Shown piece by piece: positions 4,314-23,347 of a stretch of 64,000 nucleotides of DNA; position 1 is the stretch's first letter; each line of letters opens with the position of its first letter. A program made the position numbers and the translations under genes. Below the pieces are notes generated by a model. That model saw only the letters and a list, made by a program, of their open reading frames with translations. It did not search any database and was not told the DNA's origin. The stretch is from contig NZ_CP017157.1 in NCBI RefSeq assembly GCF_001729485.1, positions 5,890,001 to 5,954,000 of the forward strand, written 5' to 3'. The stretch comes from Streptomyces lydicus. Its GTDB lineage: Bacteria > Actinomycetota > Actinomycetes > Streptomycetales > Streptomycetaceae.

Positions 4314-4966
4314 TCCGGCGGGCCGGCGTGGGACCACTGCTCGACGGCGGTCCAGCCGGTGGCGGCGGCGTGCCGCAGCAGGGCGGGAGTGCCGACCCGG
4401 GCCCAGGGGAACGGCTCGCCCGGGGTGCCGCGGCCGCCGGGGCAGCCGCGTTCGACCCGCACCTGGACGCGTTCGTCGACGTCCGCGGGGGTGGTCTCCA
4501 CGAGGAGCAGGCCGGGCCGGGCGACGAGTTGGGCGCTCCGGGCGAGGAGGGCGCGCGGGTCGCCGCCGATGCCGATGTTGCCGTCGAGGAGCAGGGCGGT
4601 GCCCCAACTCCCCTCGCCCGGGAGGGGGTCGAAGACCGAGCGGTGCAGTGCGGTGCCGCCGGTCGCGGCGGTGCGGGCCACCGCGGCCGGGCTGACGTCG
4701 ATGCCGAGCGCCCGCCGGCCCAGTGCGGCGAGCCCGGCGACCAGCCGTCCGGGGCCGCAGCCGATGTCGAGGACGGCGCCCTCGCAGCGGCGCAGCACGG
4801 CGCGGTCGGCGGCGTCCGGCCCGGCGCACCAGCGCTCGACCTCCAGCGGCAGCAGCCAGCCGTCGCTGCGGCGCAGGAAGAGCGGGCCGCGGCCGCTGCG
4901 GAGCGCCTCGGCGTACGGGTCGGCGCCCCAGGCGGCGGTGGCCGTGGCCGGCGCGGCGGCGCTCAT
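4124..4966 (-). CDS. Class I SAM-dependent methyltransferase
   Basis: 280 residues. The SAM-binding motif I is VLDIGCGPGRLVAGLAALG, followed by the acidic post-I strand (ALGIDVSPAAV). There is a conserved motif-III-like strand (LLLVETTPADVDER). The recognisable enzyme ends near CFVALRR; the last ~60 residues are low in family character and are coded opposite the 3' end of the membrane-protein gene. ATG 4966 overlaps the stop of the DUF2064 gene (ATGA), so the three leftward genes are translationally coupled. The acceptor is unknown; neighbours suggest a sugar or lipid-linked sugar. Confidence 0.85.
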   Translation of the reverse strand: MSAAAPATATAAWGADPYAEALRSGRGPLFLRRSDGWLLPLEVERWCAGPDAADRAVLRRCEGAVLDIGCGPGRLVAGLAALGRRALGIDVSPAAVARTAATGGTALHRSVFDPLPGEGSWGTALLLDGNIGIGGDPRALLARSAQLVARPGLLLVETTPADVDERVQVRVERGCPGGRGTPGEPFPWARVGTPALLRHAAATGWTAVEQWSHAGPPDQSPGGAERCFVALRRRPPAPVPACRDAAVRHSSHTAESANSAAVSSSQRPRNTPAGRPVAAS

Positions 4967-5637
4967 CGGCCGGTGTCCGGCCGCAGCCGGGCCAGGGTGG
5001 CGGCGAACCGGCCGTCGGGCGCGGCGGCCGCGACCCGCTCGGCGTCGTCCGCGGTGTCCACGTCGCGCAGCGCCGGCAGTTCCCGTACCCGGAGCCCGGC
5101 GGCGGTCAGCCGGGCGCGCTGGACGGCGCCGGTGCGGTCGGTGGACATGGGGACGCCCCGCAGCAGCCGGGGGTCGGGGACGGCCAGGCCGAGCGCCCAG
5201 AATCCGCCGTCCTCGGCCGCCCCGAACCAGGCGTCGCAGCCGTCCCAGGCGCCGCGGCACAGGGCGGGGGCGAGGAGGTCCGGGGTGACCTGGGGGGTGT
5301 CCATACCGATCAGCAGGGTCGGGCCGGCGCTGTCGGCGAAGGCCGCGGCGAGCCGCTGGTCGAGGCCGCCGGCGCACTGCGGCCGGACGTCGAACCCGGC
5401 CGGCAGCCACCGCCCGGGCCGGCCGTCGAGCACCACCACGCGCCGCCGGGCGGGCATGGCGCGCACGGCCCGCAGGGTGTCGTGCAGCGCGGCCTCGGCC
5501 AACTGGGCGGCCTCCTCGGGGGTGTAGGGCGGGGTGAGGCGGGTCTTGACCCGGCCCGGCACCGGTTCCTTGGCGATGACCAGGACCGTCGTCGGTCCGG
5601 TGGCGACCCCCGCGCGGCGCTCCGCGGCCCCGGTCAT
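4963..5637 (-). CDS. TIGR04282/DUF2064-type transferase (GT-A-like)
   Basis: 224 residues. The N-terminal VLVIAKEPVPGRVKTRLTP is the family hallmark (KxPxxGxxKTRL), similar to nucleotide-sugar and CofC-type nucleotidyltransferases. LLIGMDTPQ and EDGGFWALGL are the other conserved blocks; the Asp residues there would bind metal-nucleotide. It is coupled by ATGA overlaps both to the epimerase-GT2 gene upstream and the methyltransferase downstream. Family is confident; reaction is not known. Confidence 0.88.
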   Translation of the reverse strand: MTGAAERRAGVATGPTTVLVIAKEPVPGRVKTRLTPPYTPEEAAQLAEAALHDTLRAVRAMPARRRVVVLDGRPGRWLPAGFDVRPQCAGGLDQRLAAAFADSAGPTLLIGMDTPQVTPDLLAPALCRGAWDGCDAWFGAAEDGGFWALGLAVPDPRLLRGVPMSTDRTGAVQRARLTAAGLRVRELPALRDVDTADDAERVAAAAPDGRFAATLARLRPDTGR

Positions 5638-8760: not shown

Positions 8761-9948
8761 TCACGGCAGGGGCACTCCGGTGTAGTTCTCGGCGAGTTCC
8801 GCCGCGGCGTGCGGGGAGCCGGCGATCCGGTCGAGCTGCGCGCGCTGCAGCCGGGTGTCGAACGGCGTCTGCCCGGGCGCGGTGTGCAGCGTCGTCGTCA
8901 TGAACCAGGAGAAGTGCTCGGCCCGCCAGACCCGGCGCAAACAGGTGTCGGAGTAGGCGTCGAGCAGTTCGGCCCCGCCGGTCCGGTGCAGCCGGTCCAG
9001 GGCACGGGCGAGGACGGTGACGTCGGCGACGGCGAGGTTGAGGCCCTTGGCCCCGGTCGGCGGCACGATGTGCGCCGCGTCGCCCGCCAGCAGCACCCGC
9101 CCGTAGCGCATCGGCTCGGTGACCGAACTCCGCATGGGCAGGACCGACTTCGCGGTGATCGGGCCGCGCCGCAGCTTCCACGGCGCGTCGACGGCGGTGC
9201 GGGCCTCCAGCTCGTCCCAGATCCGCTCGTCGGGCCAGGCCGCCGGATCGGTGCCGTTGGGGACCTGGAGGTAGAGCCGGCTGACGGCCGGGGTGCGCAT
9301 GCTGAGCAGGGCGAAGCCGCGTTCGGAGTGCGCATAGACCAGCTCGTCGGAGGACGGCGGGACCTCGGCGAGCACGCCGAGCCAGGAGTAGGGGTAGCCG
9401 CGCTCGTAGGTGCGGCGTTCGCTCTGCGGCACGGCCTGCCGGGTCACGCCGTGGTAGCCGTCGCAGCCGACGACGTAGTCGCAGTCGAGGGTGTGTGCGG
9501 TGCCGTGGTGCAGGTAGCGGATGACCGGGCGGTCGGTGTGCGCGCCCTCGACGGCGGTGGCCCGCGCGTCGAACAGCAGCGGCGGCCCGTCGGCGAGTTG
9601 CAGCGCGATCAGGTCCTTCACCACCTCGGTCTGTGCGTAGACCATGACCCGGCGGCCGCCGGTCAGCGCCGGGAAGTCGAGGCGGTGCGCACGCCGGTCG
9701 AAGCGCAGCTCGATGCCGTCGTGGGGCAGGCCCTCGCGGTCCATCCGCTCCCCCGCCCCGCCGGCGCGCAGGGCGTCCACGGTGGCCTGTTCCAGGATGC
9801 CGGCGCGCTGCCGCCGCTCGACGTAGTCGCGGTCGCGGCTCTCCAGGACGACGCAGTCGATCCCGGAGCGGTGCAGCAGGCGGGCGAGCAGCAGGCCGGC
9901 GGGTCCGGCGCCGATGATGCCGACGGTGGTGCGGCGGGGGTGGGTCAC
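8761..9948 (-). CDS. pobA: 4-hydroxybenzoate 3-monooxygenase
   Basis: 395 residues, the usual length. It hydroxylates 4-hydroxybenzoate to protocatechuate using FAD and NAD(P)H. The N-terminal GIIGAGPAGLLLARLL is the FAD dinucleotide fold; DYVVGCDGYHG is the DG motif; VLLAGDAAHIVPPTGAKGLNLAVAD is the GD motif. GTG 9948 overlaps the pcaL stop (GTGA). It is the last gene of the pca operon, so its product feeds the protocatechuate genes ahead of it. Confidence 0.95.
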   Translation of the reverse strand: MTHPRRTTVGIIGAGPAGLLLARLLHRSGIDCVVLESRDRDYVERRQRAGILEQATVDALRAGGAGERMDREGLPHDGIELRFDRRAHRLDFPALTGGRRVMVYAQTEVVKDLIALQLADGPPLLFDARATAVEGAHTDRPVIRYLHHGTAHTLDCDYVVGCDGYHGVTRQAVPQSERRTYERGYPYSWLGVLAEVPPSSDELVYAHSERGFALLSMRTPAVSRLYLQVPNGTDPAAWPDERIWDELEARTAVDAPWKLRRGPITAKSVLPMRSSVTEPMRYGRVLLAGDAAHIVPPTGAKGLNLAVADVTVLARALDRLHRTGGAELLDAYSDTCLRRVWRAEHFSWFMTTTLHTAPGQTPFDTRLQRAQLDRIAGSPHAAAELAENYTGVPLP

Positions 9949-11204
9949 TGCGGTGTTCCTTCCGCGGGGTGCGGGGGCGGGCCGTCCGGGCCCCGGAGGT
10001 GTTCGGTGACGATGCGGTCGGCGAGGGCGAAGGCGGTGTTGGCGGCGGGCACGCCGCAGTAGACGGCGGTCTGGAGGAGGACCTCCTGGATCTCCTGCGG
10101 GGTGAGGCCGTTGCGCAGCGCGGCCCTCAGGTGCATCGCCAGTTCGTCGTGGTGGCCGCGGGCCACCAGCGCGGTGAGGGTGATACAGCTGCGGGTCCGC
10201 CGGGACAGGCCGGGGCGGGTCCAGATCTCGCCCCAGGCGTAGCGGGTGAGGAAGTCCTGGAAGACCTCGGTCAGTGCGCCGGTCCGCGCCTGCGCCCGGT
10301 CGACGTGCGCGTCCCCGAGGACGGCGCGGCGGACGGCCGTTCCGGCGGCGCGCCGGGCGCGGTCGTCCGTGTCGGGGAGGTGCGGGGCGCCGGGCGGCGG
10401 GGCCGTCGACGACCCGTCGGACGGGTGGGCCGTCAGATGGCCGAGCAGCGCGGCCAGGACGGCCGCCGGGCGTTCCACGCTCGCCAGGTGCGCGGCGCCG
10501 GCGAGTTCGACGAGGCTCGCGCCCGGGATGCCGTCGGCGAGTTCGCGGGCGTGCGCGGGTGGGGTGGCCGGGTCGGCGCGGCCGGCGACGACGAGGGTGG
10601 GGGCGGTGATCCGGGCCAGTGCGTCCCGCAGGTCGTAGCCGGCGAGGGCGTCACAGCAGGCCGCGTAGCCGGCGGGCGCGACGGTACGGCGCAGGGTGTC
10701 GACCAGCGCCACGGCCCGCGGGGAGCCGGCGAAGGCGGGGGTGAACCAGCGGCCGGCGGTGGTGTCGGCGACCGGCCCCAGGCCCGCCTCGCGGACTCGG
10801 GCGGCGCGGTCGTGCCAGCCCGCCGGCTCGCCGAAGCGGGCGGAGGAGCAGATCAGGGTGAGCGAGGTGATCCGCTCGGGGTGGTGTGCGGCGAGCCAGG
10901 CGCCGACCGCGCCGCCGAGCGAGACACCGGCGTAGCCGAAGCGGTCGATGCCGAGGGAGTCGGCGAGGTCGAGCACCCGGCCCGCGAGGGCGGGGACGGT
11001 GGTCGTCCCCGTGGCGGGGGTGCCGCCATGGCCCGGCAGGTCCCAGCGGACGACGCGGAACCGCTCGGCCAGTGCCGGGAGTTGGGGGTCCCAGACGGCG
11101 CGGGTGGTGCCGAGGGAGGGGCCCAGGAGCAGGGGCGGGGCGGTGTCCGGGCCGTCGACGGTGTGGTGCGGCGGCGCGCCGGGGGCGGCGGGCGGGCGGG
11201 TCAT
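9945..11204 (-). CDS. pcaL: Bifunctional 3-oxoadipate enol-lactonase / 4-carboxymuconolactone decarboxylase
   Basis: 419 residues, the PcaD-PcaC fusion known in actinobacteria as PcaL. Residues 1-~260 are an alpha/beta hydrolase with nucleophile Ser in YAGVSLGGAVG, an acid Asp in GRADPATPP and His in GAAHLASVE. Residues ~290-419 are the carboxymuconolactone decarboxylase fold (TRSCITLTALVARGHHDEL, then EVLLQTAVYCGVPAAN). It takes 4-carboxymuconolactone to 3-oxoadipate. ATG 11204 overlaps the pcaB stop (ATGA). Confidence 0.95.
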   Translation of the reverse strand: MTRPPAAPGAPPHHTVDGPDTAPPLLLGPSLGTTRAVWDPQLPALAERFRVVRWDLPGHGGTPATGTTTVPALAGRVLDLADSLGIDRFGYAGVSLGGAVGAWLAAHHPERITSLTLICSSARFGEPAGWHDRAARVREAGLGPVADTTAGRWFTPAFAGSPRAVALVDTLRRTVAPAGYAACCDALAGYDLRDALARITAPTLVVAGRADPATPPAHARELADGIPGASLVELAGAAHLASVERPAAVLAALLGHLTAHPSDGSSTAPPPGAPHLPDTDDRARRAAGTAVRRAVLGDAHVDRAQARTGALTEVFQDFLTRYAWGEIWTRPGLSRRTRSCITLTALVARGHHDELAMHLRAALRNGLTPQEIQEVLLQTAVYCGVPAANTAFALADRIVTEHLRGPDGPPPHPAEGTPQ

Positions 11205-12658
11205 CCGGGCTCCTGTGGGTCGTGCGGGGTGCGGGCCAGCGCGCGGTCCACGAGCGCGCCGGCGGACCCCGTGTACGTGGTGGGGTCGAGGAGTTGACGC
11301 AGGCGGTCTTCGGGGAGGGCGGCGGACCGGCTCTCGTCCAGCTCCGCGCGCAGCGCGTCGTGGAGTGGCGTGCCGTCCTGCGCGGTCCGCCGGGCCGCCG
11401 CGTCCACGATGCGGCGGGCCTCGCCGCGGCCCGTCAGGGCGGTGAGGGCCGCGACGAGGCGTTCGGTGACGACCAGTCCGCCGGTCGCGTCGAGGTTGTG
11501 CCGCATCCGCCGCGGGTCGACCCGCAGGTCCGCGGTCAGTTCGGCGGCGTCCCGGGCGGCGCCGCCGACCAGCCGCAGGGCGTCCCGCAGCGGCTGCCAT
11601 TCGGCGTGCCAGGCACCGGCCGGGCGCTCGTCCTCGGCGGCGAGGGAGCCGTACAGCACGGCGGTGAGGGCCGGGACCTGACGGGCGGCGGCCGCGAGGA
11701 GCGTGCCGCGCACCGGGTTCGCCTTGTGCGGCATGGCGGAGGAGCCGCCGCCGCTGCCCTCGGCCAGCTCGCCGGTTTCCGTACGGGCCAGGCTCAGGAC
11801 GTCGGCCGCGAGCTTGCCGAGGGCACCCGCGGTGAAGGCCAGCGCACCGGCGAGGTCGGCGACCGGGGTGCGCAAGGTGTGCCAGGGCAGGGCCGGTTCG
11901 GCGAGTCCGGTCTCGGCGGCGTAGGCGGCGAGGAGGCGCGGGCCGAGGTCCGGTGCCGCGGGGGCGGCCGCCGCCGCGGCCTCCGCGTAGGCGTGGAAGG
12001 CCGCGAGGGTGCCGGCCGCGCCGCCCAGTTGGGCGGGCAGTGAGGACCGTACGGCCGCGAGCCGTGCGTGGGCGTCGAGCACCAGGCTGCGCCAGCCGGC
12101 CGCCTTGAGGCCGAAGGTGGTCGGCACCGCGTGCTGGGTCAGGGTGCGGCCGGCCATGGGGGTGTCGCGGTGCCGCTCGGCCGTACGGCGCAGCGCGTCG
12201 GCGGTACGGGCGAGGTCCGGCAGCAGGAGGTCCAGGGCACGGGCGCACACCAGCATGGTGGCGGTGTCGAGGATGTCCTGGCTGGTGGCGCCCCGGTGGA
12301 CGTGGGCCGCGGCGACGGGATCGTGCGCGGCGACCGCGGCGGTCAGGTCGGCGACGAGCGGGACGACGGGGTTCCCGGCCGCGCGGGCGCGCAGGGCGAG
12401 GCCGTGCGGGTCGGGGCGGGTCCGGGCGGCGGCCGCGGTGACCGCGGCGCCCGCCGCGGCCGGGGCGAGGCCCACCGCGGCCTGGGCCCGGGTCAGGGCG
12501 GCCTCGGCGTCGAGCAGCGCGCGCAGGTACCCGGCGTCACCGGTGGCGTCGGCCACCGCCGAGCCGGCCCGGGAGGGGGCGAGCAGCCCCACGTCGGCCT
12601 CGGGACACGGACGTGCGGGCGGGGTGTCGTCGGCGCCGGGCCGGTCAGCGGAAGGCAA
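11201..12658 (-). CDS. pcaB: 3-carboxy-cis,cis-muconate cycloisomerase
   Basis: 485 residues, fumarase/aspartase superfamily. The signature loop GGSSAMPHKANPV and the earlier HRGATSQDILDTA and TLTQHAVPTTFG segments are intact. It lactonises 3-carboxymuconate to 4-carboxymuconolactone. The ORF opens at TTG 12658, overlapping pcaG by 14 nt, with AGGAG about 10 nt upstream; the conserved part begins ~22 residues later (DVGLLAP), so a later start is possible. Confidence 0.93.
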   Translation of the reverse strand: MPSADRPGADDTPPARPCPEADVGLLAPSRAGSAVADATGDAGYLRALLDAEAALTRAQAAVGLAPAAAGAAVTAAAARTRPDPHGLALRARAAGNPVVPLVADLTAAVAAHDPVAAAHVHRGATSQDILDTATMLVCARALDLLLPDLARTADALRRTAERHRDTPMAGRTLTQHAVPTTFGLKAAGWRSLVLDAHARLAAVRSSLPAQLGGAAGTLAAFHAYAEAAAAAAPAAPDLGPRLLAAYAAETGLAEPALPWHTLRTPVADLAGALAFTAGALGKLAADVLSLARTETGELAEGSGGGSSAMPHKANPVRGTLLAAAARQVPALTAVLYGSLAAEDERPAGAWHAEWQPLRDALRLVGGAARDAAELTADLRVDPRRMRHNLDATGGLVVTERLVAALTALTGRGEARRIVDAAARRTAQDGTPLHDALRAELDESRSAALPEDRLRQLLDPTTYTGSAGALVDRALARTPHDPQEPG

Positions 12659-13307
12659 GGAAGACCGTCTCCTCGTGCGTGCCGTCCGCCGTCTGCTGCA
12701 GCTGGACGTCGAAGCGGTAGCGGCCGGGGCCGTCCGCGCGGGCGAGCAGGGTGCGGGCCCGCTCGGTGGGCAGCCGCGCCAGCAGCGGGTCGGCGGCGTT
12801 GGCCGTGGCGTGCTCGGGGAAGTAGACGCGGGTGGCGAGGTGGTGGAGCAGTCCGCGGGCGAAGACGCACACCGCGAGGTGGGGCGCGGCGTCCGGGCGC
12901 CCGGCGGGGGCGGTCGCGGGCAGGGTGTGCAGGACGTAGCGCCCGTCGGCGTCGGTCGGTACCCGCCCGAAGCCGGTGAAGTCCACGCCGTTGCGGCCGA
13001 TCGCGGCGCCGGTGACCGGGTCGCGGCGCAGTGAGCCGGGCGCCCCGGTGAGGCTGCCGTCCGGGCCCGCCTGCCAGAACTCCAGCAGCGCGTCGGGCAC
13101 CGGCGCGCCGGTGCCGTCCCGTACGAGGCCGTGCACGGTGACCGTGTCCGGGTGGCCGGCCGGGGCGATCTGCCCGCCGCCGGGGAGCGGCAGGGCGTAG
13201 CCGAAGAACGGCCCGATGGTCTGCGAGGGCGTCGGGGCGAGCGGTGCGGCGGGGGCGGCGCCCGGCTCCCGGCCGGCCGGCTGCGGGCGGGTGGTGGCGC
13301 GGGGCAT
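12645..13307 (-). CDS. pcaG: Protocatechuate 3,4-dioxygenase alpha subunit
   Basis: 220 residues. PSQTIGPFFGYAL near residue 30 is the intradiol alpha-subunit opening; the fold continues through VRDGTGAPVPDALLEFWQA and the aromatic-rich end. The alpha subunit lacks the full set of iron ligands, which sit in PcaH. ATG 13307 shares one base with the pcaH stop (TGATG), so the two subunits are made in step. Confidence 0.95.
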   Translation of the reverse strand: MPRATTRPQPAGREPGAAPAAPLAPTPSQTIGPFFGYALPLPGGGQIAPAGHPDTVTVHGLVRDGTGAPVPDALLEFWQAGPDGSLTGAPGSLRRDPVTGAAIGRNGVDFTGFGRVPTDADGRYVLHTLPATAPAGRPDAAPHLAVCVFARGLLHHLATRVYFPEHATANAADPLLARLPTERARTLLARADGPGRYRFDVQLQQTADGTHEETVFLAFR

Positions 13308-14167
13308 CAGCGGCCCTCCTCGGTCCAGGTGGCGGACGGGCCGTCCAGGACGATGTCCCAGCGGTAGCCCAACGAGCGTTCTGGGCACGTCAGTTGGTGG
13401 TCGTAGGCGGCCACCAGGCGGGCGCGCGCGGCGGGGTCGGTGACCGAGCCGAGGATCGGGTCGTACGGGAGGAGCGGGTCGCCGGGGAAGTACATCTGGG
13501 TGATCAGCCGCTGGGTGAAGGCCGTGCCGAAGAGCGAGAAGTGGATGTGGGCCGGGCGCCAGGCGTTGTCGTGGTTGCGCCACGGGTAGGCGCCGGGCTT
13601 GACGGTGGTGAACGCGTAGCGGCCCTCGTCATCGGTCAGGCAGCGCCCGGCGCCGGTGAAGTTCGGGTCGAGCGGGGCGGGGTGCTGATCCCGCCGGTGG
13701 GCGTACCGGCCGGAGGCGTTGGCCTGCCAGATCTCGACGAGCTGGCCGCGTACCGGCCGGCCGCCGCGGTCCAGGACGCGTCCGGTGACGGTGAGGCGTT
13801 CGCCGAGCGGCTCACCCGGGTGCTGCCGGGTCAGGTCGGCGTCGAGGTCGGTGAGGTCGGTGACGCCGAAGGCGGGCCCGGACAGTTCCACGGCCTCCGG
13901 GTCGGCCCGGTGGTCGATCTCGACCAGCGGCCGGTGCGGGTGGCGGGAGGTGCTGCTGCGGTACGGGGGGTAGTTCCGCGCGGGGTGCTCCGGGGCGGGG
14001 GCGCCCCCGTCGCGGTCCCGTTCGGCGGCGGCGTGCAGGGCGGCCATCTCACGGCTCACGGCGGCCTGGGTGGGCAGCGGCGGGGCGGCGGACAGCGGCC
14101 GGGAGCCGGTGAGCGGGGCACCGGGCACGAAGGCCGGCGGGGCCGGGGTGGGCGGGATACGGGTCAT
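13307..14167 (-). CDS. pcaH: Protocatechuate 3,4-dioxygenase beta subunit
   Basis: 286 residues. The iron-binding beta subunit: Tyr and His ligands lie in GRYAHRRDQHPAPLDPNF and the PWRNHDNAWRPAHIHFSLFG block. It opens the protocatechuate ring between carbons 3 and 4. The N-terminus carries ~45 residues of Pro/Ala-rich sequence, longer than in well-known homologues, before the conserved NYPPYRSS. ATG 14167 was chosen for its RBS (GGAAG ~10 nt upstream). A ~90-nt gap separates it from pcaF. Confidence 0.95.
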   Translation of the reverse strand: MTRIPPTPAPPAFVPGAPLTGSRPLSAAPPLPTQAAVSREMAALHAAAERDRDGGAPAPEHPARNYPPYRSSTSRHPHRPLVEIDHRADPEAVELSGPAFGVTDLTDLDADLTRQHPGEPLGERLTVTGRVLDRGGRPVRGQLVEIWQANASGRYAHRRDQHPAPLDPNFTGAGRCLTDDEGRYAFTTVKPGAYPWRNHDNAWRPAHIHFSLFGTAFTQRLITQMYFPGDPLLPYDPILGSVTDPAARARLVAAYDHQLTCPERSLGYRWDIVLDGPSATWTEEGR

Positions 14168-14258
14168 GGCTGCCGTCTTCCGTTGCGGTGGTGGTCGGGC
14201 GGTCCGGGGAGGCGCGGTGCCGGGCGTCGCGGGCCCGGCATGGTCCAAAAGGCACGGC

Positions 14259-15485
14259 CTAGCGTTCGAGGACGACGGCCAGGCCCTGCCCCACGCCGAT
14301 GCAGAGCGTCGCGAGCCCCGTGCCGGAGCCGGCGGCCGCCAGCCGGTGGGCGACCGCGCCCACGATCCGGGCACCGGACGCGCCCAGCGGGTGGCCGAGG
14401 GCGAGGGCGCCGCCGTGCGGGTTGACCAGGGCGGGGTCGAGCTCGGGCCAGCCGGCCAGACAGCCGAGGGCCTGCGCGGCGAACGCCTCGTTCAGTTCGA
14501 CGGTGTGCAGCGCGTCGAGGCCGCGGCCGGCCTTCGCCAGGGCCCGTCGGGCCGCCTCGACCGGGCCGAGCCCGAAGAGCTGCGGCTCGATGCCGGTGAC
14601 CGCGCTGCCGCGGATCCGGGCGAGCGGTGCGCAACCGGAGGCGCGCAGGCCCGCCTCGTCCATCAGGAGCAGGGCGGCCGCACCGTCGTTGAGCGGCGAG
14701 GAGTTGCCGGCGGTGACCGTGCCCCCGTCCGCGCGGAAGACCGGGCGTAGCGCGGCCAGCGCCTGACGCGAGGTGTCGGCGCGTACGCACTCGTCGCGCA
14801 CGGGTGCCCCGTCGGCGCCGTCGCCGCCCCGCACCCCGTCCGCGCCGTACGGCACGGTCTCCGCGTCGAAGGCGCCGTCCTCCCAGGCCCGCGCCGCCTT
14901 CCGGTGGCTGGCCAGCGCGTAGGCGTCCTGCTGTTCGCGGGTGAGGCCGTAGCGGTCGGCGATCAGCTCCGCGCCCTCGCCCAGCGACACCGTCCACGCG
15001 TCGGGCATCCGGGGGTTGGTCAGCCGCCAGCCGAGGGTGGTGGAGTGCAGGGTCTGCGGGCCGGCGGGGAAGGCCCGTTCGGGCTTGGGGAGCACCCAGG
15101 GCGCCCGGCTCATCGACTCCACGCCGCCGGCCACGGCCACCGAGGCGTCGCCCAGCGCGACGGCCCTGGCGGCCTGGATGACGGCCTCCATCCCGGAGCC
15201 GCAGAGGCGGTTGACGGTGACGCCGGGCACGGTCACCGGCAGCCCGGCGAGCAGCACCGCCATCCGGGCCACGTCGCGGTTCTCCTCGCCCGCGCCGTTG
15301 GCGTTGCCGAAGTGGACGTCGTCGATCGTGGCCGGGTCCAGGCCCGGCGCGCGGTCCACCAGGGCCCTGACGACGTGCGCGGCGAGGTCGTCGGGGCGGA
15401 CGCCGGACAGCGCGCCGCCGTATTTGCCGATCGGGGTGCGGACGGCGTCGACGACGTAGACGTCCCGGGGGCGGTCGGTGATCAC
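14259..15485 (-). CDS. pcaF: Beta-ketoadipyl-CoA thiolase
   Basis: 408 residues. Acyl-accepting Cys lies in VNRLCGSGMEAV; the C-terminal NPHGGALALGHPLGASGARI and CIGVGQG blocks hold the catalytic His and Cys. It cleaves 3-oxoadipyl-CoA to succinyl-CoA and acetyl-CoA. GTG 15485 overlaps the upstream CoA-transferase stop (GTGA). A short Gly/Asp-rich insert (residues ~200-215) interrupts an otherwise standard thiolase. Confidence 0.95.
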   Translation of the reverse strand: MITDRPRDVYVVDAVRTPIGKYGGALSGVRPDDLAAHVVRALVDRAPGLDPATIDDVHFGNANGAGEENRDVARMAVLLAGLPVTVPGVTVNRLCGSGMEAVIQAARAVALGDASVAVAGGVESMSRAPWVLPKPERAFPAGPQTLHSTTLGWRLTNPRMPDAWTVSLGEGAELIADRYGLTREQQDAYALASHRKAARAWEDGAFDAETVPYGADGVRGGDGADGAPVRDECVRADTSRQALAALRPVFRADGGTVTAGNSSPLNDGAAALLLMDEAGLRASGCAPLARIRGSAVTGIEPQLFGLGPVEAARRALAKAGRGLDALHTVELNEAFAAQALGCLAGWPELDPALVNPHGGALALGHPLGASGARIVGAVAHRLAAAGSGTGLATLCIGVGQGLAVVLER

Positions 15486-17212
15486 GGGGCTGCGGTGTCC
15501 TTCCGGGAGGGGGTGCTCCGGTGCGCGGTGGGTGCGGGGGCCGGCCGGCCGGCGGCGGCCTTCAGGGCACGCAGGGCGGCGAGTTCGTCGTCGGTGGGCG
15601 GCGCCGTGACGACCGGCCGGCCGGCCACCTTCAGCTCCCAGCCGGTGGCCGCCCGTACCTGATCGACCGTCACCCCGGGGTGGAGTTCGGTCAGGACGAG
15701 TTCCGCGGTGTCGGGGTCGGGGCGCAGTACCCCGAGGTCGGTGATGACGGCGGTGGGGCCGGCGCCGGGCAGGCCGAGCGCCGCGCGGTCCCGGGGGCCG
15801 CTGCCGTGGCCGAGGGTGGTCACGAAGTCCAGCCGGTCGACGAAGTTGCGGCGGCTGTGCCGCAGCACCAGCAGCACCCGGCCGCAGTTGGCGGCGATCT
15901 CGGGTGCGCCGCCGGCCCCGGGGAGCCGCCCCTCGGGCCTGCCGGGGCCACGGCGGACGGCGGTGGTGTTGATGTTGGCGAACCGGTCGACCTGTGCGGC
16001 GCCGAGGAAGCCGACGTCGATCCGGCCGCCCTGCAGCCAGTAGTTGAACATCTCCGGCACGGACACCACGGAGTCGGCGGTGTCGGCGAGCTCGCCGTCC
16101 CCGATGGACAGCGGCAGCCGGGTCGGCTTGGCGCCGATGGTGCCGGATTCGTAGATCAACACCAGGTCCGGATCGGCGGTGCGCCGGGCGAGGTTGGCGG
16201 CCGTGCTGGGGAGCCCGATGCCGACGAAGCAGGTGCGGGCACCGGCCAGCGCGCGGGCCGCGTTGACCTCCATGAGCTCGTCAGGTGTGCAGCGGGGGGC
16301 GGGGGCGGCGGTGGCGCGGGCCCGGGGCACCCCGGCCGGCTCCTGCGCCGGAGCCGGCTGCCGCGCCGCGTCCGGTTCCGCCGCCACCCCCGGTTCCGCT
16401 CCCCCCTCCCCCCGTACGCTCTCCGCGAGCCACCGGCCGAACGCCGCGCGGTCCCGCGCGATGCCGTCCCACTGCCGGTAGAAGGCGTTGTCGCGGACCG
16501 AGTAGCCGGCCGCGTAGGAGGGGTGGGCGCCACCGGGCACGACGGCGACCGCGTCGACGACCCAGCCGGGCAGGACGACCCCGCCGGGCCGCGGCTCCAA
16601 CGGGCCGTCGACGAGTTCCTCGACGGTGACCAGGACCCGGCGGGCGGCGAGCGCCGCCTCCTTCTGCACCCCCGTCAGGCCCCACAGCTGCACGTTGCCG
16701 TCCTTGTCGGCCTGCTGCGCGTGGATGACCGTGACGTCCGGGTTGAGCGCGGCGACGGCGGCCAGTTCCTCGCCGGTGAAGGGGCAGGTGACGGTGGCGA
16801 CGGTGGGCGTGCGGCCCGGAATGTCGCTGCCGCGGTAGCCGCGCAGCACCGCGAACGGGAGCCTGGCCGCGCCCGCCGCGTAGCGGTTGGCCATGCCGGC
16901 GTGGCTGTGCTCGTCGATCTCCAGCGGGGCGGGCCAGCCGTTCTCCACCGCGTCCCGGAAGCGGTGCAGCGAGCCGACGCCCGGGTTGCCGCCCCAGGAG
17001 AAGACCAGTTTGCGGGCCGCGCCGGCGCCGATCAGCTGGTCGTAGACCACGTCCGGCGTCATCCGGGCGAGCGTGAGGTCCTTGACGCCCTGCCGGATGA
17101 TCTCGTGCGCCGCCGCGAACGGGATGAGGTGGGTGAACCCCTCCAGTGCCACGGTGTCGCCGTCGTGGATCAGCTCCGCGACGGCGTCTCGCAGGGAACG
17201 GATAGCGGCCAT
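15482..17212 (-). CDS. pcaIJ: 3-oxoadipate CoA-transferase, subunits A and B fused
   Basis: 576 residues in one frame. Residues 1-~265 match PcaI (ALEGFTHLIPFAAAHEI; FSWGGNPGVGSLHRFRDAVE); residues ~320-576 match PcaJ, with the expected catalytic Glu in LIYESGTIG. A ~50-residue Pro/Ala/Glu-rich linker joins them. Known organisms mostly have two genes, so this is a natural fusion unless the linker hides a sequencing error. It transfers CoA from succinyl-CoA to 3-oxoadipate. ATG 17212 has GAGGG 7 nt upstream. First gene of the pca operon, 72 nt from a shared operator. Confidence 0.93.
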   Translation of the reverse strand: MAAIRSLRDAVAELIHDGDTVALEGFTHLIPFAAAHEIIRQGVKDLTLARMTPDVVYDQLIGAGAARKLVFSWGGNPGVGSLHRFRDAVENGWPAPLEIDEHSHAGMANRYAAGAARLPFAVLRGYRGSDIPGRTPTVATVTCPFTGEELAAVAALNPDVTVIHAQQADKDGNVQLWGLTGVQKEAALAARRVLVTVEELVDGPLEPRPGGVVLPGWVVDAVAVVPGGAHPSYAAGYSVRDNAFYRQWDGIARDRAAFGRWLAESVRGEGGAEPGVAAEPDAARQPAPAQEPAGVPRARATAAPAPRCTPDELMEVNAARALAGARTCFVGIGLPSTAANLARRTADPDLVLIYESGTIGAKPTRLPLSIGDGELADTADSVVSVPEMFNYWLQGGRIDVGFLGAAQVDRFANINTTAVRRGPGRPEGRLPGAGGAPEIAANCGRVLLVLRHSRRNFVDRLDFVTTLGHGSGPRDRAALGLPGAGPTAVITDLGVLRPDPDTAELVLTELHPGVTVDQVRAATGWELKVAGRPVVTAPPTDDELAALRALKAAAGRPAPAPTAHRSTPSRKDTAAP

Positions 17213-17283: not shown

Positions 17284-17308
17284 GTTCGCTCAGTGAACTA
17301 AAGTTCAT
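17284..17308. promoter_or_regulatory. Three-half-site operator in the pcaIJ/pcaR intergenic region
   Basis: Half-sites GTTCGC (17284-17289), GTGAAC (17293-17298) and GTTCAT (17303-17308) are spaced by 3 and 4 bp. TGAACT-AA-AGTTCA (17294-17307) is a perfect inverted repeat. The same 6-3-6-4-6 layout recurs upstream of pcaK at 20614-20638. IclR-family PcaU and PobR are known to use three-repeat operators, so the adjacent double-IclR protein is the natural binder. Confidence 0.8.
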
Positions 17309-17400
17309 CTCTGCGCGCTCCGAGTTTGGTCCCCGTCCCGGGCCCTGTCAACGGGCCGCCGGGTACCGTTCCGACGAGATCACCGCACGATGGAGAGGCC

Positions 17401-19095
17401 ATGACCCACCCCGCCCCGACCGCTCCCGCGTCGCCGGCCCCGCCACCGGAGGCGGTGGGCCCGCTGATGCGCGGCCTGTCCGTGCTGCGGGAACTGGCGG
17501 CCGGCGCCGGCCGCCGGTCGGTCGGCGACCTGGTGCGCACCACCGGCCTCGCCCGCTCCACCGTGGACCGCGTGCTGAGCACCCTGGCCCGGCTGGGCTA
17601 CGTACGGACCGAGGGCCGCGATGCAGTGGCGGCGCCGCGGCTGCTGGAGCTCGGCAACGCCTACCTCGCCGCGTCCGAACTCCCCGACCGGCTCGGCCCG
17701 CTCGCCGACCGGCTGGCCGACGAGCTGGACGAGTCGGTCTCGCTCGCGGTGCCCGACGGCGACGGTGTCCGCTTCGTGCACCAGGCGACCCGCCGCCGCG
17801 CGATGTCGCTCGCCTTCCGCATCGGCGATCTGCTGCCCGCCGAACGGGGCGCGCCCGGCGCGCTGTTCGCGGACACCTGGACGGCGGCGGACTGGCGGCG
17901 CTGGCGGTCGCGCCGGGCGGCCGACCCGACGGACGCCGGCTTCCCCGCCGTACCGCCGCGGCCCGCCGACGACGACCCGGCCGCCGCGGCCGCCGGCTTC
18001 GAGGCGCGGGTGTCCGCCGCCCGCACCGCCGGCTGGTCCCTCGACGACCAGCTCATCGAACCGGGGCTGGTCGCCGTCGCGGTGCCGGTCCGGGACGCCG
18101 CCGGCCGCACGGTCTGCGCGCTCAGCGTCGTCAGCCACACCAGCCGGCTGAGCGCGGCGGAGCTGCCCGACGCGGTGCTCCCCCGGCTCCGCGAGACGGT
18201 CGCGGCGATGGCGGACGCCCTCGCCGCACCCGGGGGCGGCCCGCCCGCGCCCGGCACCCCCGCGGGCCATCCGCCGCACGCCACCTGGATGCGCGCCTCC
18301 AAGCAGGAACTGGGGCCGGAGTTCGTGGAGTCGCTGGCCCGCGGGCTGCTCACGCTCACCGCGTTCGGCGCCGGCCGTGCCGAACTCCCGCTGACCGCCG
18401 TGGCGGAGGCCACCGGCCTGGCACGCGCCACCGCCCGCCGGGCCCTGATCACGCTGGCGCACCTCGGCTACCTCACCACCGACGGCAAGCTCTTCCGGCT
18501 CACGCCGAAGGTGCTGGAGCTGGGCTTCGCGCACCTGTCGGGCCTGACGCTGCCCGCCCTCGCCCAGCCGCACCTCGTGGCGCTGGTCGAGCGGGTGCAC
18601 GACTCCGCGTCGATGGCGGTGCTGTCCGGCGACGAGATCCAGTACGTCGCCCGCGTCCCCACCGTGCGCATCATGAGCGTCAACATCACCCTGGGCACCC
18701 GCTTCCCGGCGTACCCCACGTCCATGGGCCGCGTCCTCCTCGCCGGCCTGCCCCCCGCCGAACGCTCCGAACGCCTGGCCCGCACCGCCCGCACCCCGCT
18801 GACCCGGCACACCGTGACCGACCCGGAGCGGCTCGGCGCGCTCCTGGAGCAGGTCCGCGCCGACGGCTACGCGCTCGTCGACGAGGAGCTGGAGGAGGGC
18901 CTGCGCTCCCTGGCCGTCCCGGTCCACGACCGCACCGGCCGCGTGGTCTCCGCGGTCAACGTCTCGACGCACGCGGGCCGTTGCACCCCGGAGGAGGCCC
19001 GCGCCGCGATCCTGCCGGCGCTGCGCGAGGCCGCCACCGCCATCGAGGCCGACCTCCGCGTGGCGGGCCGGTACGCCCGCATCGCGCCCCTGTGA
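17401..19095 (+). CDS. pcaR: Tandem IclR-family regulator of the pca genes
   Basis: 564 residues made of two IclR units. Unit 1 has a winged helix at ~20-75 (RSVGDLVRTTGLARSTVDRVLSTLARLGYV) and an effector domain to ~260. Unit 2 has a second winged helix at ~315-370 (ELPLTAVAEATGLARATARRALITLAHLGYL) and an effector domain to the end (NITLGTRFPAYPTSMGRVLLAG is the conserved IclR block). Ordinary IclR proteins are ~260 residues. The gene is divergent from pcaIJ and convergent with pcaK. It probably responds to a pathway intermediate such as protocatechuate or 3-oxoadipate. The name is by context. Confidence 0.88.
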   Translation: MTHPAPTAPASPAPPPEAVGPLMRGLSVLRELAAGAGRRSVGDLVRTTGLARSTVDRVLSTLARLGYVRTEGRDAVAAPRLLELGNAYLAASELPDRLGPLADRLADELDESVSLAVPDGDGVRFVHQATRRRAMSLAFRIGDLLPAERGAPGALFADTWTAADWRRWRSRRAADPTDAGFPAVPPRPADDDPAAAAAGFEARVSAARTAGWSLDDQLIEPGLVAVAVPVRDAAGRTVCALSVVSHTSRLSAAELPDAVLPRLRETVAAMADALAAPGGGPPAPGTPAGHPPHATWMRASKQELGPEFVESLARGLLTLTAFGAGRAELPLTAVAEATGLARATARRALITLAHLGYLTTDGKLFRLTPKVLELGFAHLSGLTLPALAQPHLVALVERVHDSASMAVLSGDEIQYVARVPTVRIMSVNITLGTRFPAYPTSMGRVLLAGLPPAERSERLARTARTPLTRHTVTDPERLGALLEQVRADGYALVDEELEEGLRSLAVPVHDRTGRVVSAVNVSTHAGRCTPEEARAAILPALREAATAIEADLRVAGRYARIAPL

Positions 19096-19096
19096 C

Positions 19097-19112
19097 CCGC
19101 CGGCCCCGGCGG
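19097..19112. terminator. Short GC hairpin between convergent pcaR and pcaK
   Basis: CCGCCGG (19097-19103) and CCGGCGG (19106-19112) directly follow the pcaR stop. The loop is very short, so the effective stem is about 6 bp. Confidence 0.4.
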
Positions 19113-19146
19113 TAGCCGCGGCGGTTCCGGGGGCCGTTCCCGCGCG

Positions 19147-20523
19147 CTACTCGGCGCCCGCCGGGGCCGGTGACGGCGTGGCCGCCGGGCGGCCGGTCCG
19201 GCGGGCGAGCGGTACGAGTCCGATGGCGAGGGCGCCCAGGAGGCCGGCCGACGCGAAGGCGGTGAAGCCGAGCCGGTCGTTGCCGGAGGCGGCGAGGGCG
19301 CCGCCCAGCCAGGGGCCGACCACCGCTCCGGTGCGGCCGATGCCGGTGACCCAGCCCAGGCCGGTGGCCCGTTGGGCGGCCGGGTAGACGCGGTCGGCGG
19401 CCGCGTAGACCATCACCTGGGCGCTGAAGAGCCAGACGCCGGTGACCGCGACCACGACGTAGGTGAGGGCGAGTGGCAGCCGGGCGCCGAGGAGCAGGGC
19501 GCCGGCGGCGGTCAGCAGGAACCAGAGGGCGGAGACCTTGACCGGGCCGTAGCGGTCGGCGGTGCGGCCGGCGATCAGCATGCCGACGATGCCGCCGGCG
19601 TTGATGACGAGCAGGAAGCTGACCGAGGACGTCAGGCCGTAGCCGGCCGCGCGCATCATCTGCGGCAGCCAGGTGCTGACGCCGTAGACCAGCAGCAGGC
19701 CCGCGAACGAGGCGAGCCAGAGCAGCGGCGTCGCCCGGCGGACGCCGGGGCGGAAGAGGGCGCGCACCGCGTCCAGACGGCCCTTGGGACCGTGGGCCGG
19801 CGCGTCGGCGGGGGCCGGGCGGGGCAGGCCGTAGCGGTCGGCGACCGCGTCGGCCTCCGCGGTGCGGCCCCTGGCGAGCAGCACGCCGGGGGATTCCGGG
19901 AGCAGCCGCAGCAGCAGGGGCGCGGCGATGACGGCGGGCAGGACGCCGGCCCAGAAGACCCAGCGCCAGCCGAGGGTGGGGGCGAGCGCCAGGCCGAGGC
20001 CGGTCGCGGCCATGCCGCCCGCGTGGTACGAGGTCATCAGCAGGCCGGTGGCGAGCGCGGCCCGGCGCGGCGGGGCGAACTCCAGCACCACGGACAGGCA
20101 GAGGGGCATCAGGCCGCCGAGCCCGAGGCCGGCCAGGAAGCGGCCGGCGCCGAAGGGCGCGGCCGTGCCGGAGAGCGCGCAGACCGCCGAGCCCGCGGAG
20201 AACAGCAGCACGCTGGTGACCAGGACCGGGCGGCGGCCCAGCCAGTCGGTGAGGGTGCCGGTGCCGAGCGCGCCGATCAGCATGCCGAAGGTGGTCCAGC
20301 TGCCGATCGTGCCGGCCGTGCCGGGGGTGAGGCGGAGACCTGGGTCGTCGAGCAGGTGCGGCATGACGGCGCCGTAGACGTTGACGTCCATCCCGTCGAA
20401 GAAGACCGCGAGCCAGCACAGGGCGAGCACCGGCGCGACGGAGCGGAAGGTGTGGCGCCGGCCGGCGGGGGCCGCGGCGTTGCCGGACGTGCCGGGGGGC
20501 GGGGGCGGACCGGAGGGGGACAT
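19147..20523 (-). CDS. pcaK: Aromatic acid:H+ symporter (MFS, AAHS family)
   Basis: 458 residues, twelve membrane helices. Helix 1 holds WLAVFFDGMDVNVYGAVMP, the AAHS motif with the acidic residues needed for 4-hydroxybenzoate/protocatechuate uptake; the loop 2-3 motif is GTLTDWLGRRPVLV and loop 8-9 has AGRTADRYGPV. ATG 20523. Its promoter carries the same operator as pcaIJ, which supports import of the pathway substrate. Confidence 0.9.
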   Translation of the reverse strand: MSPSGPPPPPGTSGNAAAPAGRRHTFRSVAPVLALCWLAVFFDGMDVNVYGAVMPHLLDDPGLRLTPGTAGTIGSWTTFGMLIGALGTGTLTDWLGRRPVLVTSVLLFSAGSAVCALSGTAAPFGAGRFLAGLGLGGLMPLCLSVVLEFAPPRRAALATGLLMTSYHAGGMAATGLGLALAPTLGWRWVFWAGVLPAVIAAPLLLRLLPESPGVLLARGRTAEADAVADRYGLPRPAPADAPAHGPKGRLDAVRALFRPGVRRATPLLWLASFAGLLLVYGVSTWLPQMMRAAGYGLTSSVSFLLVINAGGIVGMLIAGRTADRYGPVKVSALWFLLTAAGALLLGARLPLALTYVVVAVTGVWLFSAQVMVYAAADRVYPAAQRATGLGWVTGIGRTGAVVGPWLGGALAASGNDRLGFTAFASAGLLGALAIGLVPLARRTGRPAATPSPAPAGAE

Positions 20524-20613
20524 GGGACCTCGGATTCACGAGTCACGGACGCGGCGCGCGGGTGCGGGTGCGGCCGGGGCGGCTGGGGCGCGGGCGGGTC
20601 CACGGGCGGCTGA

Positions 20614-20638
20614 GTTCGCCAGGTGAACTTTCGTTCGC
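20614..20638. promoter_or_regulatory. Three-half-site operator upstream of pcaK
   Basis: GTTCGC (20614-20619), GTGAAC (20623-20628) and GTTCGC (20633-20638), spaced 3 and 4 bp exactly as in the pcaIJ operator. GTTCGCC-A-GGTGAAC (20614-20628) is a 15-bp inverted repeat with one mismatch. It lies 91 nt from the pcaK start, in the same orientation to its gene as the pcaIJ copy. Confidence 0.8.
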
Positions 20639-20695
20639 AGCCCTGTGGGCAAGGATCATCGGCCCGGGGTCGCGGGCTGTCAATGGTTCCTGCGC

Positions 20696-21685
20696 TCAGT
20701 CGCCCTGCCCGTCGGCGTCGGCGCCCCGCTTCGCCGCCGCCCGGCGCGCCATCTCCTCGCGCGCCTCCGCGGTGGCGGCCGACGGCCACACCCGGTCCAG
20801 TGCCGCGTTCATCGCCGCGCCCACCAGGACCGCGAAGGCGGACACCCCGATCCACAGCAGCACCGCGACCGGCGCGGCCAGCGACCCGTAGATCGTGGGC
20901 CCCTCGACCGTCGAGGTGAGGTAGAGCCGCAGCAGGAAGCTGCCGAGCACCCAGATGCCGAGTGCGACCACCGCGCCGGGGATGTCCTCCGGCCAGGGCG
21001 AACGGACGGGCACGGACAGGTGGTAGAGGGTGGTGAGGAAGGCGACCGACACCAGCAGGACGATCGGCCAGTACAGCGCCCGGATGACGTGCTCACTGGC
21101 CGGCAGCAGGCCCACCACCGTGTCGGGGCCGGCCACCATCAGCGGCAGCGCGACGGCGCCGACCAGCAGCCCGGCGAGGTAGAGCACGAAGGACAGCAGC
21201 CGCGTCTTGACGATGCCGCGCCGGCCGTCGAGCCCGTACATGATCGTGATGGTGTCGACGAAGACGTTCAGCGCGCGCGAACCGGACCACAGCGCGAGGG
21301 CGAAGCCGATCGAGATGACGTCGGGGCGGCGGCCGGTGAAGACGTCGTTCAGCAGCGGCCGGGCGATCTCGTTCACGCCCTTGTCGGAGAGCACCGTGCC
21401 GGCCGCGCCGAGGATGTGCTGACGGACGTTGTCGAGGGTGTCGTGCCCGATCCACGCCTGCGTGTAGCCGAGGACGCCGAGCAGCCCGAGGATCAGCGGC
21501 GGCAGCGACAGCAGGCACCAGAACGCGGCCTCCGCGGCCAGACCGGTGACCCGGTACGTCATGCAGGAGTGCACGATGTCCTTGAGCAGGAGCCAGGCCA
21601 GCCGGCGCGTGGAGACATTGCGGTACAGAACGCGGGCCCTGGTCAGACGGCCCGCCCGCTCGGTTGGTTCGTTTGCCGGCTGCAC
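20696..21685 (-). CDS. YihY/BrkB-family membrane protein
   Basis: About 329 residues. Six hydrophobic segments and the family blocks AAEAAFWCLLSLPPLILGLLG near the start and NVFVDTITIMYGL in the middle; the C-terminus is a charged Ala/Arg tail. The family was once called ribonuclease BN; its true role is uncertain. Start is unclear: on the coding strand AAGGAG abuts GTG 21685; ATG 21721 is also in frame but lies inside the divergent dehydrogenase gene. Confidence 0.85.
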   Translation of the reverse strand: MQPANEPTERAGRLTRARVLYRNVSTRRLAWLLLKDIVHSCMTYRVTGLAAEAAFWCLLSLPPLILGLLGVLGYTQAWIGHDTLDNVRQHILGAAGTVLSDKGVNEIARPLLNDVFTGRRPDVISIGFALALWSGSRALNVFVDTITIMYGLDGRRGIVKTRLLSFVLYLAGLLVGAVALPLMVAGPDTVVGLLPASEHVIRALYWPIVLLVSVAFLTTLYHLSVPVRSPWPEDIPGAVVALGIWVLGSFLLRLYLTSTVEGPTIYGSLAAPVAVLLWIGVSAFAVLVGAAMNAALDRVWPSAATAEAREEMARRAAAKRGADADGQGD

Positions 21686-21703
21686 CTCCTTACCGTATCC
21701 GGC

Positions 21704-23347
21704 ATGGCAGCCACCACTCATACGGTCACCAACCAGCCCCCGCCGCTGGTCGGCTACGACGTCTTCGCCAACGACCCCGCCCTCACCGAAGGCATCGCCC
21801 GGTACGTCGCCGACGGCCGGCAGGACGAGGCACGGGAGGAACTGGGCCGGCTGGGGCGGGCGGCCGGCTCGGCCCACGCCCAGCAGTGGGGCGAACAGGC
21901 CAATCGCCACCCGCCCGTCCTGCACACCCACGACCGCTACGGCCACCGCGTCGACGAGGTGGAGTTCCACCCGGCCTGGCACCGGCTGCTGGGCCACGCC
22001 GTGACGGCCGGCCTGACCGACGCCTGGTCCCGCCCCGACGGCCATGTCCGCCGCACCGCCGGCTTCATCACGTGGACCCAGGCCGAGGCGGGCCACGGCT
22101 GCCCGCTGTCGATGACCCACGCGGCGGTCCCCACCCTGCGCGCCGAGCCGGAGCTGGCCGCCGTGTGGGAGCCGCTGCTGACCTCGCGGATCTACGAGCA
22201 GGAGCTGCGCCCGGCCGCCGAGAAGGGCGGGGCGCTGGCCGGCATGGCGATGACGGAGAAGCAGGGCGGCAGCGACCTGCGGGCCACCACCACCCGCGCC
22301 GAGCCGCTGGCCGCGCCCGGCGAGTACGCGCTGACCGGGCACAAGTGGTTCTGCTCGGCGCCGATGTCGGACGCCTTCCTGGTACTGGCCCGGGCACCCG
22401 GGGGGCTCACCTGCTTCCTGCTGCCGCGGGTGCTGCCGGACGGCAGCCGCAACTCCTTCCGGCTCCAGCGGCTCAAGGACAAGCTCGGCAACCGCTCCAA
22501 CGCCTCGGCCGAGGTCGAGTTCGACGGGCGGACCTGGGCCCGCCGGGTCGGCGAGGAGGGACGCGGGATCGCGACGCTCATCGAGATGGTGGCGGCGACC
22601 CGGCTGGACTGCGTCAGCGCCGCGGCCGCGGTGATGCGCCAGGCGGCGGCGCAGGCGCTGCACCACACCGCGTACCGCGAGGCGTTCGGCAGCCGGCTGG
22701 CCGACCTGCCGCTGATGCGCAACGTGCTGGCCGACCTGGCGCTGGAGTCGGAGGCGGCGACCACGCTGGCGCTGCGGCTGGCGGCCGCGTACGACGCGGA
22801 CACCGAGCAGGACCGGCACCTGCTGCGGCTGGCGGTCCCGGCGGCGAAGTACTGGGTGACCAAGCGGTGCACGCCGATGGTGACCGAGGCGCTGGAGTGC
22901 CTGGGCGGCAACGGCTACGTCGAGGAGTCGGGGCTGCCCAGGCTGCTGCGCGAGGCACCGCTGAACTCGATCTGGGAGGGCTCCGGCAACGTCCAGGCGC
23001 TGGACGTGCTGCGGGCCCTGCGCCGCGAACCCCCGGCGCTGCACGCCTTCCTGACCGAGATCGGTACGGCGCGGGGCGCGGACCACCGGCTGGACCGGGC
23101 GATCAAGGGGATGCTCACCGAACTCGCCGACCTGGAGGGCATCGAGGCGCGGGCCCGGCGCCTGGTGGAGCGGATGGCGCTGGTGCTGCAGGGCTCGCTG
23201 CTGGTGCGGTACGCGCCGCCGGAGGTCGCGGACGCGTTCTGCGCCTCGCGTCTGGGCGGCGACGCGGGCGCGGCCTTCGGCACGCTGCCGCACACACTGG
23301 ACCTCGCCGCGATCGTGGCGCGTGCGCGCCCGGTGCTCGACCGCTGA
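21704..23347 (+). CDS. AidB-like acyl-CoA dehydrogenase
   Basis: 547 residues, close to the length of E. coli AidB (541) and longer than ordinary acyl-CoA dehydrogenases. Diagnostic features are MAMTEKQGGSDLRATTT, LKDKLGNRSNASAEVEFD and LECLGGNGYVEESGLPRL followed by REAPLNSIWEGSGNV. AidB binds FAD and DNA and is linked to the adaptive response to alkylation; here no other alkylation gene is nearby. ATG 21704 has no clear RBS and may be leaderless. Only 18 bp separate it from the proposed start of the divergent BrkB gene. Confidence 0.9.
   Translation: MAATTHTVTNQPPPLVGYDVFANDPALTEGIARYVADGRQDEAREELGRLGRAAGSAHAQQWGEQANRHPPVLHTHDRYGHRVDEVEFHPAWHRLLGHAVTAGLTDAWSRPDGHVRRTAGFITWTQAEAGHGCPLSMTHAAVPTLRAEPELAAVWEPLLTSRIYEQELRPAAEKGGALAGMAMTEKQGGSDLRATTTRAEPLAAPGEYALTGHKWFCSAPMSDAFLVLARAPGGLTCFLLPRVLPDGSRNSFRLQRLKDKLGNRSNASAEVEFDGRTWARRVGEEGRGIATLIEMVAATRLDCVSAAAAVMRQAAAQALHHTAYREAFGSRLADLPLMRNVLADLALESEAATTLALRLAAAYDADTEQDRHLLRLAVPAAKYWVTKRCTPMVTEALECLGGNGYVEESGLPRLLREAPLNSIWEGSGNVQALDVLRALRREPPALHAFLTEIGTARGADHRLDRAIKGMLTELADLEGIEARARRLVERMALVLQGSLLVRYAPPEVADAFCASRLGGDAGAAFGTLPHTLDLAAIVARARPVLDR

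Follow-up and report, generated by a model that had tools for sequence, protein, structure and literature searches.

The 64,000-nucleotide stretch of Streptomyces lydicus DNA analysed here (hereafter the window) contains genes for the uptake and catabolism of aromatic acids, together with two near-identical 25-bp elements, each composed of three short boxes, that we examined as putative operators of the regulator gene lying between them. The first element (17284..17308, minus strand) reads GTTCGC TCA GTGAAC TAAA GTTCAT, with box 1 at 17284-17289, box 2 at 17293-17298 and box 3 at 17303-17308. The second (20614..20638, minus strand) reads GTTCGC CAG GTGAAC TTTC GTTCGC, with the corresponding boxes at 20614-20619, 20623-20628 and 20633-20638. 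An earlier note on this DNA had described shared half-sites, spacing and orientation, and the description is exact: both elements have spacers of 3 and 4 bp and the same orientation relative to their minus-strand genes. Box 1 is on the gene-facing side at both sites, starting 72 bp from the start of pcaIJ (17212) and 91 bp from the start of pcaK (20523). The first element, assigned in the earlier note to the pcaIJ promoter, does precede pcaIJ, and more precisely heads a run of seven minus-strand genes (fused pcaIJ, pcaF, pcaH, pcaG, pcaB, fused pcaDC and pobA), probably read as a single transcript.

To assess the rarity of this layout, the motif GTTCGC-N3-GTGAAC-N4-GTTC was scanned across the whole 8.2-Mb genome, allowing up to three mismatches. 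Of the 41 matches, two are exact, namely the pair in the window, and 39 have three mismatches; none has one or two, leaving the window pair alone at up to two mismatches. The reversed control motif gives 12 matches in the same scan, and from base composition 0.0014 exact matches would be expected by chance in the whole genome.

The gene between the pcaIJ run and pcaK (17401..19095, plus strand) encodes a PobR-like regulator of 564 aa belonging to the PcaR/PcaU/PobR family. The protein passes the family model TIGR02431 in two stretches (468.1 bits against a cut-off of 284.75), and its chain holds two complete halves, each with a helix-turn-helix (HTH) and an effector domain, as in the double-IclR type of Streptomyces coelicolor PobR; the adjacent double IclR protein proposed earlier is thereby confirmed. 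It is 62% identical over 494 aligned residues to PDB 5w1e, which, to judge from the structure title, we take to be S. coelicolor PobR, a double IclR protein of solved structure. S. coelicolor PobR is reportedly a repressor released by 4-hydroxybenzoate. The two systems share the double-IclR architecture and a link to aromatic-acid catabolism; unlike S. coelicolor PobR, the window regulator is encoded next to pca genes and has putative operators at a whole pca run and at pcaK. By sequence, the regulator is thus a PobR-type double IclR protein, a kind already known. A search of open-licence PMC papers on double or tandem IclR proteins, and on PobR, PcaV or IclR-type PcaR in Streptomyces, returned none that we recognised as being on this locus.

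The genes beside the operators, all on the minus strand, were named from family models. Three names are given by likeness, the scores falling short of the cut-offs set for the corresponding NCBIfam models. More specifically, pcaIJ (15482..17212), tentatively a fused 3-oxoadipate CoA-transferase, matches Pfam CoA_trans in two stretches, with the NCBIfam pcaI and pcaJ models below cut-off; the pcaF-like thiolase (14259..15485) scores 461.6 bits with TIGR02430, below its cut-off of 597, and exceeds the cut-off of the general thiolase model TIGR01930; and the pcaK-like aromatic acid/H+ symporter of the major facilitator superfamily (19147..20523), which matches MFS_1, scores 283.5 bits with TIGR00895, below 418.55. 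The genes for protocatechuate 3,4-dioxygenase beta (pcaH, 13307..14374) and alpha (pcaG, 12645..13583) are above cut-off with TIGR02422 at residues 130-353 and with TIGR02423 at residues 118-310, respectively, and their true starts are probably internal to the open reading frames. The same probably holds for the pcaDC fusion (9945..12248; NF051488 556.4 bits, cut-off 390), where family matches begin at residue 361. The 3-carboxy-cis,cis-muconate cycloisomerase gene pcaB (11201..12658) scores 384 bits with TIGR02426 (cut-off 355.75); its score with a nitrosuccinate lyase model is higher, at 565.8 bits (cut-off 650). The run ends with pobA, encoding 4-hydroxybenzoate 3-monooxygenase (8761..9948; NF006091 610.4 bits, cut-off 351; TIGR02360 495.7 bits, below 538.7). 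Neighbouring pcaK are genes for a BrkB-like membrane protein (20696-21706) and an AidB-type acyl-CoA dehydrogenase (21704-23347).

Conservation of the operator in relatives

Related loci were searched with the regulator and the best 80 of 176 were compared, mostly from Streptomyces with one from Actinacidiphila and two from Streptosporangiaceae; all 80 were selected by the double-IclR gene, and the comparison therefore covers only loci with that gene. At up to three mismatches, 42 of the 80 loci have the operator upstream of the regulator, no further than about 450 bp away. In the kind of comparison of Streptomyces pca loci proposed in the earlier note, it is present at nearly every locus with pca or pob genes: 38 loci have both, one has pca genes without the operator, four have the operator without pca genes and 37 have neither. 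The sole pca locus without an operator (L075) is a case of a misplaced start, the operator being present at 5013. At the four loci with an operator upstream of the regulator and no pca gene found (L040, L043, L053 and L071), the promoter pattern described below is absent; their operators perhaps serve autoregulation only, or are decaying. Of the 14 related loci in which pcaK was matched, 10 have the operator before this gene; the remaining four give only a short piece as their best pcaK match.

A second sample consisted of 12 genomes with a double-IclR gene, in which a relaxed motif gave 32 matches, 30 of them with a locus; 16 of the 32 were at first picked by eye, after which all 30 with a locus were examined. 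Nine of these 30 stand directly before pobA, in nine of the 12 genomes, and two before pcaK. In those nine genomes the listed double-IclR gene is at least 150 kb from the pobA in question or on another contig. Box 1 points toward the catabolic gene in all 36 linked cases that could be placed and in all 11 unlinked pobA or pcaK cases. A two-mismatch motif scan of 150 relatives matched in 137, mostly background, and provides leads only. Taken together, the operator pair is genuine and conserved.

Other proteins could in principle bind such sites. The S. coelicolor pca genes, for instance, are regulated by PcaV, a MarR-type protein. No observation made here points to such a protein, and we consider it very improbable that a PcaV-like or other protein is the binder, since the operator conforms to the group 1 consensus for IclR regulators in the part of PMC8222616 compared and accompanies the double-IclR gene in the 42 loci, all loci having been chosen by that gene.

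Promoter position and the mode of regulation

A promoter-like sequence is found on the far side of each operator from its gene. For the pcaIJ run, TTGACA-N17-CAAACT (17323..17351, minus strand) lies 14 bp from the operator and is proposed from consensus match and conservation; for pcaK, TTGACA-N17-GATGAT (20655..20683, minus strand) lies 16 bp from the operator and was found by a default promoter scan. A pattern composed after inspecting the sites, TTGAC[AG]-N16-18-[CG]ANRMY, is followed 9-17 bp later by the operator at 48 of 54 sites, compared to 10 of 10800 shuffles. Applied unchanged to the 30 relaxed-motif matches, it occurs at 11 of 11 sites before pobA or pcaK and at one of 19 elsewhere, that one beside a double-IclR gene. 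Four occurrences are found in the entire 64-kb window, two of which are the promoter-like sequences of the pcaIJ run and of pcaK. Assuming a start about 7 bases past the -10 hexamer, the operators would span about +8 to +35. A position downstream of the predicted start, at nearly constant distance from the promoter, thus appears to be shared by Streptomyces and relatives; to judge from sequence it is new here, and it is unmentioned in the compared part of PMC8222616.

This arrangement bears directly on how the regulator may act. Acinetobacter PcaU and PobR are single IclR proteins and activators, and a PcaU-type activator site sits upstream of the promoter that PcaU activates. The window regulator could be an activator of this kind, bound to a three-repeat site upstream of a promoter: the protein family is the same, PcaU and PobR of Acinetobacter likewise use three half-sites in the same pathway, and the third box is cited as needed for PcaU binding (PMC8222616, in the part compared). 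However, near-consensus promoters lie beyond the operators, which places the operators downstream of the predicted start rather than upstream of an activated promoter as in Acinetobacter, and before the nine unlinked pobA genes the operator ends only 3-78 bp from the predicted start codon. We therefore find an activator quite unlikely. The comparison with PcaU/PobR drawn in the earlier note stands as far as a three-box IclR operator is concerned, but not in position, which looks repressor-like.

With the operator downstream of the predicted promoter, a repressor that prevents transcription from starting is favoured over a PcaU-like activator, in agreement with the reported repressor role of S. 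coelicolor PobR. The double-IclR protein encoded between them, a PobR-type repressor, very probably uses both 25-bp elements as its operators and would join uptake and catabolism; the single regulon for the two proposed earlier is consistent with operators at both pcaK and the pcaIJ run. Some observations weigh against this interpretation. The default promoter scan skipped the predicted pcaIJ promoter, whose second hexamer matches at only three of six positions, and its -10 hexamer CAAACT is poor relative to the E. coli consensus. Six of the 54 sites do not carry the promoter pattern, namely L040, L043, L053 and L071, with no pca gene found, and the near-misses L032 and L080.

In the proposed mechanism, protein bound at about +8 to +35 would block initiation or early elongation. 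Upon binding of an aromatic acid (4-hydroxybenzoate, perhaps protocatechuate) to the effector domain, the repressor would depart, and uptake by pcaK and the run from pcaIJ to pobA would be switched on together. Each chain, with its two linked HTHs, probably occupies one inverted pair of 15 bp, boxes 1 and 2; a second chain would then bind 19 bp further, at box 3 and a box 4 whose sequence was lost and which is still visible in some single-IclR relatives.

Box geometry and a possible role of two DNA-binding heads

Three-box IclR sites with alternating boxes have been predicted for 32 orthologous groups comprising 199 factors, and tandem IclR sites 18-22 bp apart have been described (Suvorova and Gelfand 2021, PMC8222616, as far as compared). 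The window operators have the same alternating layout, with one group 1 pair and one group 2 pair, which supports the IclR-type three-box operator claimed in the earlier note; by eye, boxes 1-2 fit the published consensus GKTYCRYW3-4RYGRAMC save for its A/T spacer, and boxes 2-3 resemble the group 2 pair, a loose fit. The words 'fused', 'fusion' and 'two HTH' are absent from the main text of PMC8222616, though a double IclR protein may still be among its factors.

Sites of single-IclR regulators were compared in 20 loci. Five of them (L205, L206, L208, L211 and L214) have GTGCGC-N3-GCGCAC-N4-GTGCGC upstream of the regulator, with the spacing found in the window. These sites rest on exact spacing and on conservation among close relatives whose surroundings are also conserved; by a four-box score they are not outstanding, 13-20 of 40 shuffles being equally good. 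In these five loci the single-IclR gene is divergent from a gene whose product, by eye, begins like a lipoprotein; the GTGCGC site lies in the intergenic stretch, and upstream there is a hexamer resembling TTGACC or TTGCCC. Two single-IclR loci with pca genes, L218 and L221, have four boxes in a 6-3-6-4-6-3-6 arrangement, at 4958-4991 between the regulator and pcaIJ and at 2272-2305 elsewhere in the locus, respectively. In a four-box scan of the 20 loci, only L204, L209, L210, L216, L218 and L220 beat all 40 shuffles; the L221 site is outside the stretch covered by that scan. No such three- or four-box site was seen in the remaining single-IclR loci of the 20.

The four-box site of L218 and L221 is a candidate ancestral form of the three-box operator, which would most simply derive from tandem palindromes 19 bp apart by loss of one box. 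A hidden fourth box was sought in the double-IclR operators and rejected: at the expected position the best score is three of five matches, reached by two of 42 sites, which does not rise above background. Separately, a 6-3-6-4-6-3-6 four-box pattern is observed about 4.5 kb upstream of the double-IclR gene in L056 and L066 (near 2481-2514) and in L062 (near 2441-2474), reading, by eye, GTTCGG..GCGGAC..GTTCGC..GCGCAC in L056; genome G049 has a second IclR-like match immediately adjacent to the double-IclR one. From the single-IclR loci, the geometry seems not to be peculiar to the double protein. The earlier suggestion that the double protein must hold the half-sites in a new way falls, because some single-IclR relatives share the spacing and double IclR proteins are already known as PobR. 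In a weaker form of that idea, the reading of boxes 2 and 3 seems to differ from that of box 1.

Box composition was tallied over 66 sites, comprising 52 linked sites, the two in the window and 12 from the 16 relaxed-motif matches picked by eye. Box 1 reads GTTCG in 65 of the 66, and the fifth base is A in 61 for box 2 and in 57 for box 3; the box 1 and box 2 figures are partly built in by the search motif. GTTCG is therefore found once, in box 1, and boxes 2 and 3 follow NTTCA. Among 42 sites, 41 retain the TTC of box 3, a figure again partly due to the search itself, and 40 have A as the next base, which the search left free. Outside the boxes no column exceeds 0.58 bit but one, the T immediately preceding box 1 (1.14 bit).

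These figures also bear on a two-box alternative, in which the inverted pair GTTCGC-N3-GTGAAC (15 bp) would by itself be the working operator and box 3 would be incidental or belong to the start-site region. Corynebacterium glutamicum PcaR is a single IclR protein. Its site is listed as GTTCGC-N3-GCGAAC in Table 1 of PMC8222616, with the same half-site and 3-bp spacer as in the window and a symmetric motif of only two boxes rather than three. Along with the first base of box 3, its most variable, this speaks for a two-box operator; the retention of TTC and of the following A, against flanks that carry little information save the one T, makes it unlikely.

The first base is constant in box 1 and variable in boxes 2 and 3, where it mostly varies with E45 rather than V or A in the N-terminal HTH. 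All eight linked loci with GAAG in box 2 carry E at residue 45 (LER), whereas GAAC loci carry V or A; the window regulator itself has V45 (LVR) compared to E (LER) in 5w1e. The C-terminal recognition helix is, by eye, alike in both classes. At unlinked sites, changes in the first base of box 2 are not strictly matched by changes in that of box 3. The tree (77 of 81 proteins; the alignment covers 41 of 81 regulators, hand-picked) leaves only one or two independent events for this covariation, which is accordingly a lead and not a test.

The unequal boxes and the E45 pattern suggest that N-terminal heads sit on boxes 2 and 3 with a C-terminal head on box 1, and the inequality may reflect two different DNA-binding heads. 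We tentatively put forward, as a possibility short of an expectation, an asymmetric operator in which GTTCG of box 1 is read by the C-terminal HTH, which is near that of single PcaR, and NTTCA of boxes 2 and 3 by the N-terminal HTHs from two chains; fusion would have allowed the reduction of a tandem palindrome to three boxes and set the orientation of the operator with respect to the gene.

The find mainly adds another example of an already known system, that of PobR. It offers a testable regulon for a double-IclR repressor, with two near-identical operators at an uptake gene and at a seven-gene catabolic run, and an aromatic-acid sensor part for lignin-related work. If two heads do read different boxes, this would be a natural case of a fused regulator making a symmetric operator directional.
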